A stretch of 64,000 nucleotides of DNA from Microcoleus sp. FACHB-672. GTDB lineage: Bacteria > Cyanobacteriota > Cyanobacteriia > Cyanobacteriales > Oscillatoriaceae. Where the stretch lies: positions 62,001-126,000 of the forward strand of contig NZ_JACJOU010000020.1 in NCBI RefSeq assembly GCF_014695725.1, written 5' to 3'. The position numbers and the translations under genes were made by a program. Below are positions 31,276 to 36,900 of this stretch, in pieces (within the stretch, counting starts at the first letter, position 1; the number at the start of each line of letters is the position of its first letter). The notes beneath the pieces are model-generated. The model was not told where the DNA came from. It saw only the letters and a program-made list of their open reading frames with translations, and made no database searches.

Positions 31276-31665
31276 ATGCTCTCAAGACCCAGTTTCGATG
31301 ATCGAACTCTGGCTGAATCCTTTTACCAAGCGTTACTACATCGCTTCTGTGATTCTTTTGATGGTTCCACCCGCAGCCTGTTAGATAATTGCACCTTTGG
31401 TATTGCCCCCAGTCAAACTGGCGTGAAAACCTTTTTCATTTTGGCTCCTTCCCTAGACGCGGCAAAGCAACTAGCCGAAAGCATCGGCAGCATCATCACT
31501 CAAGTAACCAACCTGATGCCTGGAGTCGCCCAGACAGGTATCTGCGTGGCCCCGCCTGAAATAGCAGAGGATTCTACCAATCCAGAAGACTTAGGACAAT
31601 TTCCACCTAAGTTTATGATGGGTAAAATTTTCTCCCACCCATCCGAGGTTGGAAGTGCAAATTAG
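31276..31665 (+). CDS. Hypothetical protein
   Basis: A 129-residue protein with no domain I recognise. It starts MLSRPSFDDRTLAESFYQALLHRF, has a mixed middle (KTFFILAPSLDAAKQLAESIGSIIT) and an acidic/Pro-rich end. No signal peptide or membrane segment. The start is well supported by TAGGAGGGA at 31260-31268. A small hairpin with a T run (AGCCT...GGGCTTTTTT, 31713-31736) follows as terminator. The upstream region contains A/T-rich promoter-like sequence (ACTAGAAT, TATATCAC). It is a monocistronic unit between the disulfide reductase and the STAS/sugar-transferase gene. Confidence 0.68.
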   Translation: MLSRPSFDDRTLAESFYQALLHRFCDSFDGSTRSLLDNCTFGIAPSQTGVKTFFILAPSLDAAKQLAESIGSIITQVTNLMPGVAQTGICVAPPEIAEDSTNPEDLGQFPPKFMMGKIFSHPSEVGSAN

Positions 31666-32269: not shown

Positions 32270-33271
32270 ATGGTTAGCCAACCCTCAGACGCAGACTTTC
32301 GGGTTACAGTCACTAACGAAATTCCCTTGGTTCAGCTGCCTGCTCGCCTCAGCGTGCTAGAAGCAGTCGCCTTTAAGCAAACCTGCCAACAGCTTTGCCA
32401 GCAAAGCCCCATTCCCAGCAAAATCATCCTTGATTTTAGCCAAACCCACTTTATGGACAGCAGTGGGGTAGGGGCTTTGGTCAATAATGTGCGAATCACC
32501 CAACAGCAGGGAATTGAATTGGTGCTGCAAACTGTCCAGCCCCAAGTCATGGCAGTCCTGTCCATAACTGGACTCGATCAAGTTTTAAAAATTGAACCCG
32601 CAACGGAAACAACGGCGACAACCAATAGCGCCCGTCGCGTCCAAAATCAGCTACCGACGACCCATCCCTCGGTACGATCATGGGTCAAACGCTTGATAGA
32701 CGTGGTGGGGGCTTTGGTAGGTTTGGTTCTGACGGCAATTTTGCTGATCCCCATTGGGATTGCCATCAAACTGGACGATCCTGGCCCGATTTTCTTCAGT
32801 CAAATCCGCTGCGGTTGGATGGGCCGGCGGTTTCGGTTGTGGAAACTGCGCTCCATGTGCGTCAATGCAGAAGCGCTGAAGTCACAAGTCGCCAACCAAG
32901 TAGAAGGCCCATTATTTAAAAACGACAACGATCCCCGGATCACGCGAGTAGGCCGGTTTCTGCGGCGAACCAGTTTGGATGAGTTGCCGCAGTTTTGGAA
33001 CGTGCTCAGAGGGGAAATGAGTTTAGTTGGCACCCGCCCCCCGACCCCAGATGAAGTAGAGCGTTACGAAGTGCCAGAATGGCAGCGCTTAGATGTCAAA
33101 CCCGGCATGACCGGCGAATGGCAAGTAAAGGGCCGGTCTCGCATCAGCAAATTTGAGGACGTGATCCGCCTGGATTTGCAATATCAAAAGAATTGGAGCC
33201 TTATATATGACTTAAAATTAATTATCCAAACTGTTCTGGTCCTGTTTAATAAAAACAGCGGTGCGATGTGA
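32270..33271 (+). CDS. STAS domain fused to undecaprenyl-P sugar transferase
   Basis: A 333-residue fusion. Residues 15-112 are a STAS anti-anti-sigma domain with the phosphorylation motif D63-S-S-G66. After a linker, one membrane helix (about 145-167) leads into a bacterial sugar transferase (WcaJ/ExoY type): GPIFFSQIR, FRLWKLRSM, RRTSLDELPQFWNVL and SLVGTRPP. The enzyme places the first sugar phosphate on undecaprenyl phosphate to start exopolysaccharide assembly. The fusion suggests that phosphorylation of the STAS serine switches enzyme activity or location. The next two genes encode the matching kinase and phosphatase types. The Asp-Glu pair and basic residues of the transferase are present, so it should be active. 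Confidence 0.92.
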   Translation: MVSQPSDADFRVTVTNEIPLVQLPARLSVLEAVAFKQTCQQLCQQSPIPSKIILDFSQTHFMDSSGVGALVNNVRITQQQGIELVLQTVQPQVMAVLSITGLDQVLKIEPATETTATTNSARRVQNQLPTTHPSVRSWVKRLIDVVGALVGLVLTAILLIPIGIAIKLDDPGPIFFSQIRCGWMGRRFRLWKLRSMCVNAEALKSQVANQVEGPLFKNDNDPRITRVGRFLRRTSLDELPQFWNVLRGEMSLVGTRPPTPDEVERYEVPEWQRLDVKPGMTGEWQVKGRSRISKFEDVIRLDLQYQKNWSLIYDLKLIIQTVLVLFNKNSGAM

Positions 33272-33316
33272 GGGAAGATTTCTGAATTAAGAATTGAGAA
33301 TTCTTTATTCTTCCTT

Positions 33317-33344
33317 CTTCATTCTTCATTCTTCATTCTTCATT
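33317..33344 (+). repeat. Heptanucleotide tandem repeat (4 x CTTCATT)
   Basis: Four perfect CTTCATT units, with degenerate units upstream (33303-33316). It ends six bases before the likely ATG at 33351. Heptamer repeats of this kind (STRR) are known from filamentous cyanobacteria. Copy-number change would alter the spacing of upstream signals. Confidence 0.8.
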
Positions 33345-33350
33345 GAGAAG

Positions 33351-33845
33351 ATGGTGTTAGACAACCTTGGCAGCTGGTGGAAATCCCACCTGAGAAAAAA
33401 ACCAGAGAAACAAGAACAACCCCTCAAACAAGCGCAGCTTTCCGTATTGACGGAACTGAATTCTCTAGCCGAAGTTTTGCAATGGTTTGAGCAGTTTAAG
33501 CTGGCGCTGCTACCCTGTAACGTTTGGTGGCAATGCCAAACAGCCCTTGCAGAAGGCTTGACGAACGCGGTGCGCCATGCCCACCGAAACTTGCCTCAGA
33601 CGACCCCAATTGAGATTGAGGTCAAACTTTTTCCACACAGAATGGAAATGCGAATTTGGGATCAAGGTCAACCGTTCGACCTAGAAAAAAGGTTGCACGA
33701 AAACCTAGCGCTCTTTCGCCCTGGCGATCCCGACCCGCATGGCAATGGATTGATCTTTATGTACAAGCTAATGGATGAGCTTTCGTATACGCGAACACCA
33801 GACGAGCGCAATTGTTTGCTGATGCAAAAGAACATTAGCAAATAA
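33351..33845 (+). CDS. RsbW-like serine kinase / anti-sigma factor
   Basis: A 164-residue GHKL-type ATPase. N box EGLTNAVRHAH, G1-like WDQGQPFD and G2-like HGNGLIFMYKL are all present, so ATP binding and STAS-serine kinase activity are expected. The family phosphorylates STAS antagonists such as SpoIIAA or RsbV. I chose the ATG at 33351 (VLDNLGSWWKSH) because the longer frame from 33294 is mostly the CTTCATT repeat translated. It lies 79 bases after the STAS-transferase gene and 116 bases before the phosphatase gene, all in one direction. The natural partner is the STAS domain of the upstream gene. Confidence 0.9.
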   Translation: MVLDNLGSWWKSHLRKKPEKQEQPLKQAQLSVLTELNSLAEVLQWFEQFKLALLPCNVWWQCQTALAEGLTNAVRHAHRNLPQTTPIEIEVKLFPHRMEMRIWDQGQPFDLEKRLHENLALFRPGDPDPHGNGLIFMYKLMDELSYTRTPDERNCLLMQKNISK

Positions 33846-33961
33846 TCAAATTTTTTAATGTTGGTTGTGTCAATTGCGCTTTTTTACCAGCCCGTTTAAA
33901 ATCAACCCCTAGGGGGATTGCCTCGATGAGCCACGTCTATTTAGATGTATAGGAGTAGCTT

Positions 33962-36343
33962 ATGCATTCAGAATCTTGGCTTGAGGCAAATCGTCTGATG
34001 GTTAACTCCCTCGCAAGTGGTCGTATCGCAATGATCAAGGCACCATTGCCTGATAACGAAGCCAAGAGGATTGAAGCGCTACGGAAGTATCAGGTACTTG
34101 ATACATTACCTGAACAGGCATTTGACGATCTGGTGCGTCTCGCTGCAAAAATTTGTGAAACTCCCATCGCCCTGATTAGCTTAATCGATACCGACCGGCA
34201 GTGGTTCAAGTCGAAAGTGGGATGGGCAGGACGGACTTCAAAACGGGATGTGGCGTTCTGTGCCCATGCAATTTTGTCCGATCAAGTGTTTACGGTCAGC
34301 GACACTTTGCAAGATCCCCGTTTTGTTGCCAATCCCTTAGTGATTAGTCCTCCTTATATTCGGTCTTATGCCGGTGCCCAGCTAGTAACCCCCGATGGTT
34401 TTACCTTGGGCACCTTATGCGTTATGGATTATGTGCCGCGAGAGTTGAGCGAGGCGCAGCTAGACATTCTAGCGACTCTGTCGCGTCAGGTAATGGCGCT
34501 GATGGAGAAAGGCCGGCAACTGCGGCAAATGGAAACAACCCAAGCTCATCTCCACAATTTTCTCGACAGAGCCAATGTTTTGATCCAGAGCATTCGAGTT
34601 TCTGATGGGCATTTTCTGTCTGTTAATCAAACATGGCGGCAAACGTTGGGCTATAGCGACGAGGAAGCGGCCCAACTATCGCTTTGGGATATTTTACATC
34701 CAGAAAGCCGTCAGCCTTGGTTGCTGGAAAAACTGCGCCACGGAGAATCGCTCGAATCAGTCGAGATGATTTTTGTCAGCAAGCAGGGGGAGCCGGTGTG
34801 GGTGGAAGGAAATATCAGCTGCCGGTGGGAAAATGGTCAACCTGCCGTCACGCGAGGGATTTTCCGAAATATCACCGCTCGGAAATACCGGCAAATTTTT
34901 GAAAATACCGCTCAAGGGCTGTTTCAAGTGACCCTAGACGGACATTATCGCACCGCTAACTCGGCCTTGGCTCGCATTTACGGTTATGATTCCCCAGAGC
35001 AATTTCTCGAGAGGGTAGGAAATATCAATCAACTTTATGTTAATCCCATCCACTGGGCTGAGTGCGTGCGCTACTTAGAAACTCAAGGCCAGGTGCAGCA
35101 TAAGACGGAGGCTGAGGTCTGTAAACGGGATGGAGCGGTCATCTGGATTTCCGAAACGATCCGGCTGCTGCGAGATACCCAAGGCCGGCCTGTGGCTGTG
35201 GAAGGGTTTGTGCAGGATATCACCAGTCTCAAGCAGTCAGAGGCGACGTTGCAGATGGCGAGGGACTTGCTCCAAGTTGTGCTGGATGCAGTGCCCGGTA
35301 CAGTTTCTTTAATTAGTTCCAATTTTCGCTATCTGGGAGTGAACCGGCATTTGGCCAGCATTCTCAACTTGTCTCAAGACGCGTTAGTTGGTCAAGAAGT
35401 CGGCTTTCGTCAAGATAAGTTTGGTAAATTTGTCCGCAGTTTTTTTGCTAACCGGACGAGCGAAGACTCCATAGAAATAGAGGGTCCGCCAGTCGATGGC
35501 ATTCCCCGCAGTCTGGTGGTGATTGCCAAAAAGTGGAAGTGGCTGGGAGATGAAGCGGCTGTTTTTGTCGGAATCGATATTACTAAGCGCAAGCAAGCCG
35601 AGGCAGCGTTGCGGGCGGAATTGGCAGAAGCGGCTGAGTATGTGAAATCGCTCCTCCCCTCTGCGGTTAATGAGCCGTTAAGCATCGACTCGAAGTTTAT
35701 TAGCTCGCAACAATTGGGTGGCGATTGCTTTGATTATTACTGGCTCGATCAAGACCATTTAGCGATTTATTTGCTGGATGTTTCCGGGCATGGTTTAGGG
35801 CCGGCACTGCTATCAGTTTCTGTTCTAAATGTTTTGCGTTCGCGCTCTCTTAATACAAATTTTTATCAACCGAATGCGGTCTTAGATGCGCTGAATGAGG
35901 CGTTTCAGATGGAAAAGCAACGAAATATGTACTTTACCATCTGGTATGGAGTCTATAACCGAGTCACGCGCAAACTCGTCTATGCTAGTGCCGGCCACCC
36001 GCCGGCAGTCTTATTATCAAATATAAATACCCCTTCCCCCCAAGTTCAACATCTAAGAACCCCAGGAGGGTTGCCCATTGGAATGTTTCCTAACGTCAAA
36101 TATGCAAACGCTGAGTGTCAGGTTGAACCTTGCAGCACGTTGTACATTTACAGTGATGGAATTTACGAAATTAAGCAACCTGATGGGACGATTTGGAGCT
36201 TCGATCATTTCATTGAGTGGTTGGCCGAGTCCAGACGACCGGACACCCTCAGCCTTCAACATATCTTAGACGACCTACGGGCATTGGGCAGCAAAGATAC
36301 CTTTGAAGATGATGTATCTCTTTTACAAGTGACTTTTGATTAA
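33962..36343 (+). CDS. GAF-PAS-PAS-PAS-SpoIIE phosphatase
   Basis: A 793-residue sensor phosphatase. An N-terminal GAF domain (about 40-190, LRKYQVLDTLPEQAFDDLV) is followed by PAS domains at about 197-305, 310-425 and 432-547, and a PP2C-type SpoIIE/RsbU domain at about 575-792 with GGDCFDYYWL, LLDVSGHGLGPAL, SAGHPPAV and DDVSLLQVTF. It should dephosphorylate a STAS protein in response to a ligand sensed by GAF or PAS, reversing the kinase encoded upstream. AGGAG precedes the ATG at 33962. A start at the Met about 24 residues on is possible. No transmembrane segment is seen, so it is cytoplasmic. Confidence 0.93.
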   Translation: MHSESWLEANRLMVNSLASGRIAMIKAPLPDNEAKRIEALRKYQVLDTLPEQAFDDLVRLAAKICETPIALISLIDTDRQWFKSKVGWAGRTSKRDVAFCAHAILSDQVFTVSDTLQDPRFVANPLVISPPYIRSYAGAQLVTPDGFTLGTLCVMDYVPRELSEAQLDILATLSRQVMALMEKGRQLRQMETTQAHLHNFLDRANVLIQSIRVSDGHFLSVNQTWRQTLGYSDEEAAQLSLWDILHPESRQPWLLEKLRHGESLESVEMIFVSKQGEPVWVEGNISCRWENGQPAVTRGIFRNITARKYRQIFENTAQGLFQVTLDGHYRTANSALARIYGYDSPEQFLERVGNINQLYVNPIHWAECVRYLETQGQVQHKTEAEVCKRDGAVIWISETIRLLRDTQGRPVAVEGFVQDITSLKQSEATLQMARDLLQVVLDAVPGTVSLISSNFRYLGVNRHLASILNLSQDALVGQEVGFRQDKFGKFVRSFFANRTSEDSIEIEGPPVDGIPRSLVVIAKKWKWLGDEAAVFVGIDITKRKQAEAALRAELAEAAEYVKSLLPSAVNEPLSIDSKFISSQQLGGDCFDYYWLDQDHLAIYLLDVSGHGLGPALLSVSVLNVLRSRSLNTNFYQPNAVLDALNEAFQMEKQRNMYFTIWYGVYNRVTRKLVYASAGHPPAVLLSNINTPSPQVQHLRTPGGLPIGMFPNVKYANAECQVEPCSTLYIYSDGIYEIKQPDGTIWSFDHFIEWLAESRRPDTLSLQHILDDLRALGSKDTFEDDVSLLQVTFD

Positions 36344-36418
36344 ATTTAAACCCTCAAGCGGCAACGCTCCAAGAGCTTTAATCTTCATGGCGGCTATTAT
36401 TTTTTATTAAAAATTATA

Positions 36419-36441
36419 GGGGCGAAATTAAAAATCGCCCC
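36419..36441. terminator. GGGGCGA/TCGCCCC hairpin
   Basis: GGGGCGA (36419-36425) pairs with TCGCCCC (36435-36441). The minus-strand continuation is CTATAATTTTT, so it can end the STAS transcript (36565-36900). The same arms occur at 44328-44349 near gyrB. Confidence 0.6.
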
Positions 36442-36564
36442 GACTGGCTAGAAAAATTGACTGAAACTTCAGTGATGCCGGCGTAAAATAAAAACCAAAG
36501 GCTCCAAAACCGCCAGTCTTTGATTAAACAGTATTGCCTATCGAGCGACAATTTAATCAAACAA

Positions 36565-36900
36565 TCAACGTGATGAGTCGGATGAGACTAAAGAGTTGCT
36601 AAATTCCTCACGATTGGCAAAAATATCAAGGAATCTATCAACACTAGCTAGCTCAAATAACATTCTCACCTGATGGTTAACGGAGCAGACAGCTAGTTTG
36701 CTTTTAGCAGCTTGAACCGTTTTAAAAGCAGATACTAAAACTCTTAAGCCTGAGCTATCCATAAAGGTTACATCCTTTAAATCAACCAACACAATATCAG
36801 CGCCGGCTTCAATGATCTCGCTAATTTCTTGCTCAAATTGATTGGCTTTCGTGCTATCTAAAATTCCGGAAGGTTGAACAACTTTAACTGTAAGGCTCAT
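36565..36900 (-). CDS. STAS anti-anti-sigma factor
   Basis: A stand-alone STAS protein of 111 residues from the ATG at 36900 (SLTVKVVQPSGILDS). It has the phosphorylation motif D48-S-S-G51 in VTFMDSSGLRVLV. The reading frame extends to 36996, but the 32 extra residues do not belong to the fold. It is convergent with the SpoIIE phosphatase gene and gives the cluster a second possible target for the kinase and phosphatase. Such proteins bind and neutralise anti-sigma kinases when unphosphorylated. A hairpin for termination lies at 36419-36441. Confidence 0.9.
   Translation of the reverse strand: MSLTVKVVQPSGILDSTKANQFEQEISEIIEAGADIVLVDLKDVTFMDSSGLRVLVSAFKTVQAAKSKLAVCSVNHQVRMLFELASVDRFLDIFANREEFSNSLVSSDSSR

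Follow-up and report, generated by a model that had tools for sequence, protein, structure and literature searches.

Can a partner switch act on a biosynthetic enzyme directly, without a sigma factor or other regulator in between? The question is raised by a gene of Microcoleus sp. FACHB-672 in which a STAS domain is fused to a sugar-phosphate transferase. It lies in a 64,000-nucleotide stretch of contig NZ_JACJOU010000020.1 (positions 62,001–126,000, forward strand; hereafter the window, to whose first letter all unprefixed positions refer), next to genes for a kinase and a phosphatase. A preliminary description of this DNA proposed that the genes form a partner-switching module wired to a transferase that initiates exopolysaccharide (EPS) synthesis. 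Having followed this up by sequence comparison, structure prediction and phylogeny, we consider it probable that the block forms a partner-switching module with the enzyme as its output, phosphorylation directly controlling the first step of polysaccharide synthesis.

The block comprises four genes. The fusion occupies 32270..33271 on the forward strand as one open reading frame (ORF) of 333 residues, with Pfam domains and intact motifs. It is followed on the same strand by an RsbW/SpoIIAB-type serine kinase (33351..33845; HATPase_c_2, Pfam E-value 7e-25) of 164 residues from its likely ATG start, the mechanically called ORF beginning with a TTG at 33294, and then by a 793-residue SpoIIE-type (PP2C) phosphatase (33962..36343; SpoIIE E-value 4.3e-42) whose N-terminal part holds GAF and PAS sensor domains, the PAS region giving three S-box stretches by NCBIfam. 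Convergent with the phosphatase gene, on the reverse strand, lies a free single-domain STAS protein of the RsbV/SpoIIAA type (36565..about 36921, start codon uncertain; STAS E-value 2.3e-20), which carries the motif FMDSSG. No receiver domain was found by Pfam in the four proteins. Pfam and NCBIfam thereby bear out the gene content given in the preliminary description: a sugar transferase fused to a STAS domain whose DSSG serine is intact, an RsbW-type kinase and a GAF/three-PAS phosphatase next to it, and a free STAS protein opposite. The same block, in identical order and orientation, is present at 10 of the 136 fusion loci in our tree (the window counted), a recurrence that rules out a chance ORF and any artefact of frame or assembly.

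Within the fusion, the STAS domain spans residues 11–113 (Pfam E-value 2e-17) and the Bac_transf domain (PF02397) residues 140–326 (E-value 2.2e-66); the NCBIfam model for EPS polyprenyl glycosylphosphotransferases scored 295.4, just under its cut-off of 295.55. The STAS motif FMDSSGVGALV places the presumed phosphorylation site at Ser64 (codon AGC, 32459..32461, forward strand). In the transferase part, Asp237 and Glu238 are invariant in 62 of 62 diverse fusions, and we take them to be the Asp-Glu dyad of small phosphoglycosyl transferases (PGTs). An AlphaFold model, with a mean predicted local distance difference test (pLDDT) score of 88.3 and a predicted template modelling (pTM) score of 0.79, displays a STAS fold joined by a low-confidence linker (about residues 111–130) to a PglC-like domain, in which a long helix (residues 138–169) is presumed to be re-entrant. 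The top fold matches of the model were PglC (8g1n/8e37) and WbaP, together with the STAS proteins TM1442, SpoIIAA and RsbV. Before residue 130, Pfam and the model gave only STAS matches, and by these two the transmembrane bundle and domain of unknown function (DUF) of large PGTs are absent. Judged from sequence and predicted structure, the transferase part is a small monotopic PGT of the PglC kind, and the linker and fold matches indicate that the STAS part occupies the place of the large transferases' transmembrane bundle and DUF, on a tether.

Judged by its matches, the STAS-transferase fusion is widespread in cyanobacteria. Full-length matches were found in 22 of 40 relatives, the genome of the window counted, two of them (genomes G038 and G014, with frames of 328 and 318 residues) having a stop codon inside the aligned stretch. 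Incomplete fusions among the 40 are cut by a contig end (G009), broken across frames (G017) or partial with two stops (G007). At least 86 of 386 sampled genomes across the cyanobacterial phylum hold a full-length match, among the matches listed, which reach to near an E-value of 5e-83. When a genome collection of 84,980 species was scanned with a STAS-plus-linker profile, the best 80 of 454 candidates encoding a relative were all cyanobacterial by title; these 80 named loci being the best of the 454, other phyla may also hold fusions. We counted fusions as distinct when both profiles matched, the transferase score was at least 150 bits and the last 250 residues differed (n = 140). The fusion tree contains 136 of these, four having been dropped (two Alg13/Alg14-like triple fusions and two cut by contig ends).

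The two triple fusions (L056:5514-7514, forward strand; L057:6590-8590, reverse strand) are 666-residue proteins of two same-family genomes, in which Alg13-like and Alg14-like parts, assigned by reading the sequence, accompany a STAS domain (motifs FIDSM and FIDSL) and a sugar transferase domain whose final part looks degenerate. A split or frame-broken fusion occurs at L200:5253-6783 of genome G199, where two overlapping frames encode the STAS and transferase parts separately, ahead of a kinase gene; the break in G017 (L058) is similar.

The presumed acceptor serine is universal in this sample. All 140 distinct fusions have Ser64 (135 DSS, 3 DSC, 1 DSL and 1 DSM), and among the 62 diverse fusions no STAS residue other than Thr59, Asp63 and Ser64 is invariant. 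Three peptide patterns served to find the 80 named loci, and Asp63-Ser64 is part of one of them; the serine is likewise retained at loci that came from protein searches of whole genomes, which apparently did not select for that motif. Flanking positions vary, with DSSA at L190, whose tree neighbours L045 and L189 have DSSG, and the variant IIDSSG at L166, L169 and L171. At the codon level, residue 64 is encoded only by AGC or AGT in 138 fusions (the two triple fusions dropped), and switching from AGY to TCN serine codons, sought there as a sign of selection, was not seen; the invariance is weaker proof of selection because only one of the two codon families occurs.

A kinase gene is a frequent companion of the fusion. 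Adjacency was scored for 131 of the 136 tree fusions; of the five others, L093, L099 and L118 have less than 1.5 kb downstream, and L183 and L186 have a nearby kinase in another position or orientation. A same-strand kinase lies directly downstream in 54 of the 131, against a chance expectation, roughly estimated from 12 HATPase_c_2 matches over cut-off in the 6.37 Mb of the own genome, of about 0.1% per locus for a same-strand kinase within 1 kb, and we therefore rejected chance neighbourhood. The gap between the two genes is 31 bases or less, overlaps included and with mechanically chosen starts, in 31 of the 54 linked loci. We did not use translational overlap as evidence of coupling, since overlaps are common with mechanically chosen starts, which are unverified; short gaps alone were used. 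In the window, the interval between fusion and kinase holds a short tandem repeat at 33300-33341, consisting of two 21-base copies of the ATTCTTnATTCTT type.

The linked kinases are themselves nearly set apart. On a tree of 55 fusion-adjacent and 39 other cyanobacterial RsbW-like kinases, the labels change 3 times, compared with a shuffled mean of 30.2; both this and the fusion tree are 'quick' trees, supported by the Shimodaira-Hasegawa-like approximate likelihood ratio test (SH-aLRT) only. The fusion-linked kinases appear to form a near-separate lineage, for which one origin is possible. In genome G026, the fusion is on one contig and a kinase on another (L222) groups with the fusion-linked kinases, its exact place being weakly supported. 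Together, the near-separate lineage and the G026 kinase point to an enduring functional partnership of fusion and kinase and away from an accident of location.

The catalytic features of kinase and phosphatase are in order. The N-box Glu and Asn are present in 55 of 55 fusion-linked kinases, and equally in 39 of 39 others, and the G1 Asp in 53 of the 55. By profile, the window kinase matches RsbW (6m36) with an E-value of 2.8e-12, and its structure model has a mean pLDDT of 85.7. In the window phosphatase, the GD, DVSGHG and SDGI motifs align to 3es2 and EDDVSLL can be read in the translation; the aspartates of these motifs presumably bind metal. Larger modules recur in other lineages as well. 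Fusion, kinase, free STAS protein and phosphatase are all found at L166 and L171, and all except the free STAS protein at L169, these three being second copies, each in a genome where a kinase-less fusion occurs too (G076, G120 and G107). At L186, a kinase-phosphatase-STAS block stands upstream of the fusion, in an order differing from that of the window.

The fusion is not new to genetics. On plasmid pSYSM of Synechocystis PCC 6803, the sugar transferase at the XssP position (L206:9001-9954), identified as xssP by its annotation and by the NACHT-type regulator gene next to it, is a STAS and Bac_transf fusion of the same architecture, 48% identical to that of the window over 96% of the query (query residues 14–332). 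It lies outside our count of 140 and outside the fusion tree. Unlike the window fusion, it sits in a full EPS cluster, and no RsbW-type kinase is annotated within the 19-kb stretch around it. XssP is the priming glycosyltransferase of synechan, and excerpts of the synechan paper report that bloom formation is abolished and EPS accumulation suppressed in an xssP mutant (PMC8205485); the term 'STAS' is absent from that paper's main text. The activity of XssP in Synechococcus elongatus 7942 (excerpts of PMC13125312) was discarded as proof of kinase-free function, as this host may have partners: S. elongatus is among the controls that match SpoIIE and STAS over cut-off, and it is also among the 12 controls that match HATPase_c_2, 10 of them over cut-off.

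A second case, All4160 of Anabaena PCC 7120, is described in one paper as a glycosyltransferase that carries a STAS domain at its N-terminus (PMC8256260), and synthesis of heterocyst envelope polysaccharide (HEP) depends on it according to an excerpt of another (PMC4390870). By this description, it resembles the window fusion. The preliminary description, which was aware of no characterised direct fusion, is corrected on this point by XssP, with its published knockout phenotype, and by All4160. In the open-access literature we found no text treating the STAS part of the fusion as a switch, and nothing under the pairing of STAS with sugar transferase. The parts are known, and what appears to be new, as read from the sequences, is a partner switch wired into the enzyme itself.

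Several known switches resemble parts of this arrangement. In the SpoIIAB-SpoIIAA-SpoIIE and RsbW-RsbV-RsbU switches of Bacillus, the kinase, STAS serine and PP2C-type phosphatase belong to the same families and have the same motifs as in the window, whereas the STAS acceptor of the window is covalently joined to a membrane PGT. HmpU-HmpV-HmpW of Nostoc punctiforme is a kinase-STAS-phosphatase switch belonging to the locus for hormogonium motility and polysaccharide, in which the unphosphorylated form of HmpV is suggested to be active; HmpV is a STAS-only protein for which the excerpted text names no direct enzyme target (PMC8256260). In Vibrio fischeri, phosphorylation of the STAS serine in the SypE-SypA system controls polysaccharide-dependent biofilm formation post-transcriptionally; SypA, active when unphosphorylated, is a free STAS protein whose mode of action that paper gave as unknown (PMC4517449), whereas in the window a STAS domain sits on the enzyme. 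The EpsW-EpsZ pair of Myxococcus xanthus provides phospho-dependent post-translational control of an initiating PGT, but through a separate response regulator acting on a large PGT and without a serine kinase, whereas the PGT of the window is small and lacks a receiver. The excerpted text of that paper does not contain 'STAS'; it mentions, citing another study, small PGTs fused to receiver domains, and CapM tyrosine phosphorylation is a further precedent for post-translational control of such enzymes (PMC12802240).

A probable working scheme is as follows. The adjacent RsbW-type kinase would bind the STAS domain of the fusion and phosphorylate Ser64, and the SpoIIE-type phosphatase, under the control of its GAF and PAS domains, would dephosphorylate the fusion, the free STAS protein or both. 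Unphosphorylated free STAS protein would compete for the kinase. Depending on the state of the tethered STAS domain, the transferase would or would not transfer the first sugar-phosphate to undecaprenyl phosphate, which is the committed step in making one polysaccharide. Analogy with RsbV, HmpV and SypA inclines us slightly towards the unphosphorylated fusion as the active form. The polymer made by this pathway is presumably a polysaccharide of the EPS type, and a link to motility or biofilm formation in this organism may be supposed. Support for a switch comes from the intact domains and motifs, the invariant Ser64, the linked and near-separate kinase, the recurring modules and the need for XssP in synechan synthesis.

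A number of findings weigh against it. No directly downstream kinase is present at 77 of the 131 scorable fusions. A clade of 63 rows (SH-aLRT 100) holds 61 of these 77, which is every one of its scored rows, the other two being unscored or too short; the serine is retained throughout this clade, and outside it the kinase adjoins 54 of 70 scored fusions. The clade is mostly heterocystous, its named rows being Nostocales/Nostocaceae or genera that we take to be heterocystous (Nostoc, Fischerella, Scytonema, Calothrix and others), with the exceptions of L090 (uncultured cyanobacterium) and L113 (cyanobacterium PCC 7702), and All4160 probably belongs to it. A phosphatase was detected within about 6 kb of only 15 of the 136 fusions and a free STAS protein near only 16, both lower bounds, as the profiles were built from window-family sequences and contig ends were left unfiltered. 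XssP has the acceptor motif DSAA in place of DSSG. The AlphaFold model bears no sign of inter-domain allosteric contact, and an effect of the phosphate on activity is not visible in it. Among the window proteins scanned with Pfam, which are not every ORF, no other polysaccharide gene cluster adjoins the module. Cross-talk or another target is also possible, because kinases, phosphatases and STAS proteins also occur elsewhere in the own genome: a second kinase-phosphatase-STAS set lies at C12:77310-79746, with further sets at C15:108584-109588 and C33:393582-397084. The same genome has three sugar transferases, of which only that of the window has a co-located STAS match. The preliminary description held that fusions occurring in relatives without the kinase and phosphatase genes would refute the switch, and the survey found many such cases, which bears against it in part; the absences are clustered, the serine survives and, in G026, the kinase is on another contig. 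Its proposal of a switch wired to an EPS-initiating transferase keeps the support of the domain fusion, the kinase lineage and the serine invariant in all 140; the link to the kinase is not universal.

One alternative, compatible with the switch, is that the regulation is real in kinase-linked lineages and has been lost or rewired in the mostly heterocystous clade and in XssP-like fusions, where Ser64 would be structural and the switch a lineage-specific addition. Kinase adjacency is clustered on the fusion tree, with 9 changes compared with about 41.6 on average after shuffling, the acceptor motifs of XssP and L190 depart from DSSG, and three genomes with such divergent fusions (G014, G105 and G122) show no kinase of the window family at an E-value of 1e-18. 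We nevertheless regard this as rather unlikely. No distinct fusion lacks Ser64, and among the 80 named loci this includes the 57 at which no adjacent kinase was detected (in 5 of them the sequence stops no more than about 620 bases from the fusion); many cyanobacteria, the own genome included, have other STAS-type kinases able to act in trans.

Less probable still is that the STAS part is a passive scaffold for docking, oligomerisation or positioning, with the kinase and phosphatase acting on the free STAS protein and another target in an operon of convenience. The mostly heterocystous clade, which keeps the fusion without a neighbouring kinase, would fit this, as would the recurrence of the window's convergent phosphatase-STAS order at C12 and C15 of the own genome. 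A scaffold does not, however, predict that the sole invariant STAS residues should be the presumed phospho-site and its neighbours; the linked kinases form a near-separate lineage, and at 40 of the 54 kinase-linked loci neither a phosphatase nor a free STAS protein was detected nearby, leaving the fusion as the only STAS partner at hand.

Reverse flow, in which the transferase senses the supply of undecaprenyl phosphate or sugar nucleotide and, through capture or release of the kinase by its STAS domain, acts on a sigma factor or other regulator, can draw on known systems where STAS proteins sequester RsbW/SpoIIAB kinases and on those same 40 loci with a kinase but no detected phosphatase. It is very unlikely, given that the Pfam-scanned part of the window's proteins includes neither a sigma factor nor another obvious target, that the fusion persists without an adjacent kinase in a large clade, and that XssP is needed for synechan synthesis in the excerpts cited above (PMC8205485). 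A sigma factor or regulator acting in trans may nonetheless exist.

Two further genes lie near the fusion. Upstream of it in the window is a 129-residue protein without a family match (31276..31665, forward strand), which also stands just upstream of the fusion in six same-family genomes (L034-L039). A gene of the DUF3318 family, assigned by a tested representative, lies upstream of 62 of the 80 named fusion loci, with a median start at about -1.9 kb, and occurs both with the kinase (13 of 23 loci) and without it (49 of 57 loci).

Overall, the observation of the preliminary description is confirmed and its interpretation is plausible and strengthened by the phylogeny of the sequences. A broader proposition, to which we give somewhat less than even weight, is that covalent STAS control of the initiating transferase extends across the cyanobacterial phylum, to EPS, synechan and HEP alike, with dedicated kinases in the linked lineages and shared kinases acting in trans in heterocystous species, such that partner switching acts on an enzyme without a transcription step. 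The fusion family includes a known biosynthetic enzyme, XssP, and by description All4160. If the switch is real, it would show in a concrete case what STAS proteins can act on in systems without a sigma factor, the question that SypA leaves open. A phosphorylation switch on the enzyme through which undecaprenyl phosphate enters slime synthesis would then allow polysaccharide production to be turned on and off rapidly, without new transcription.

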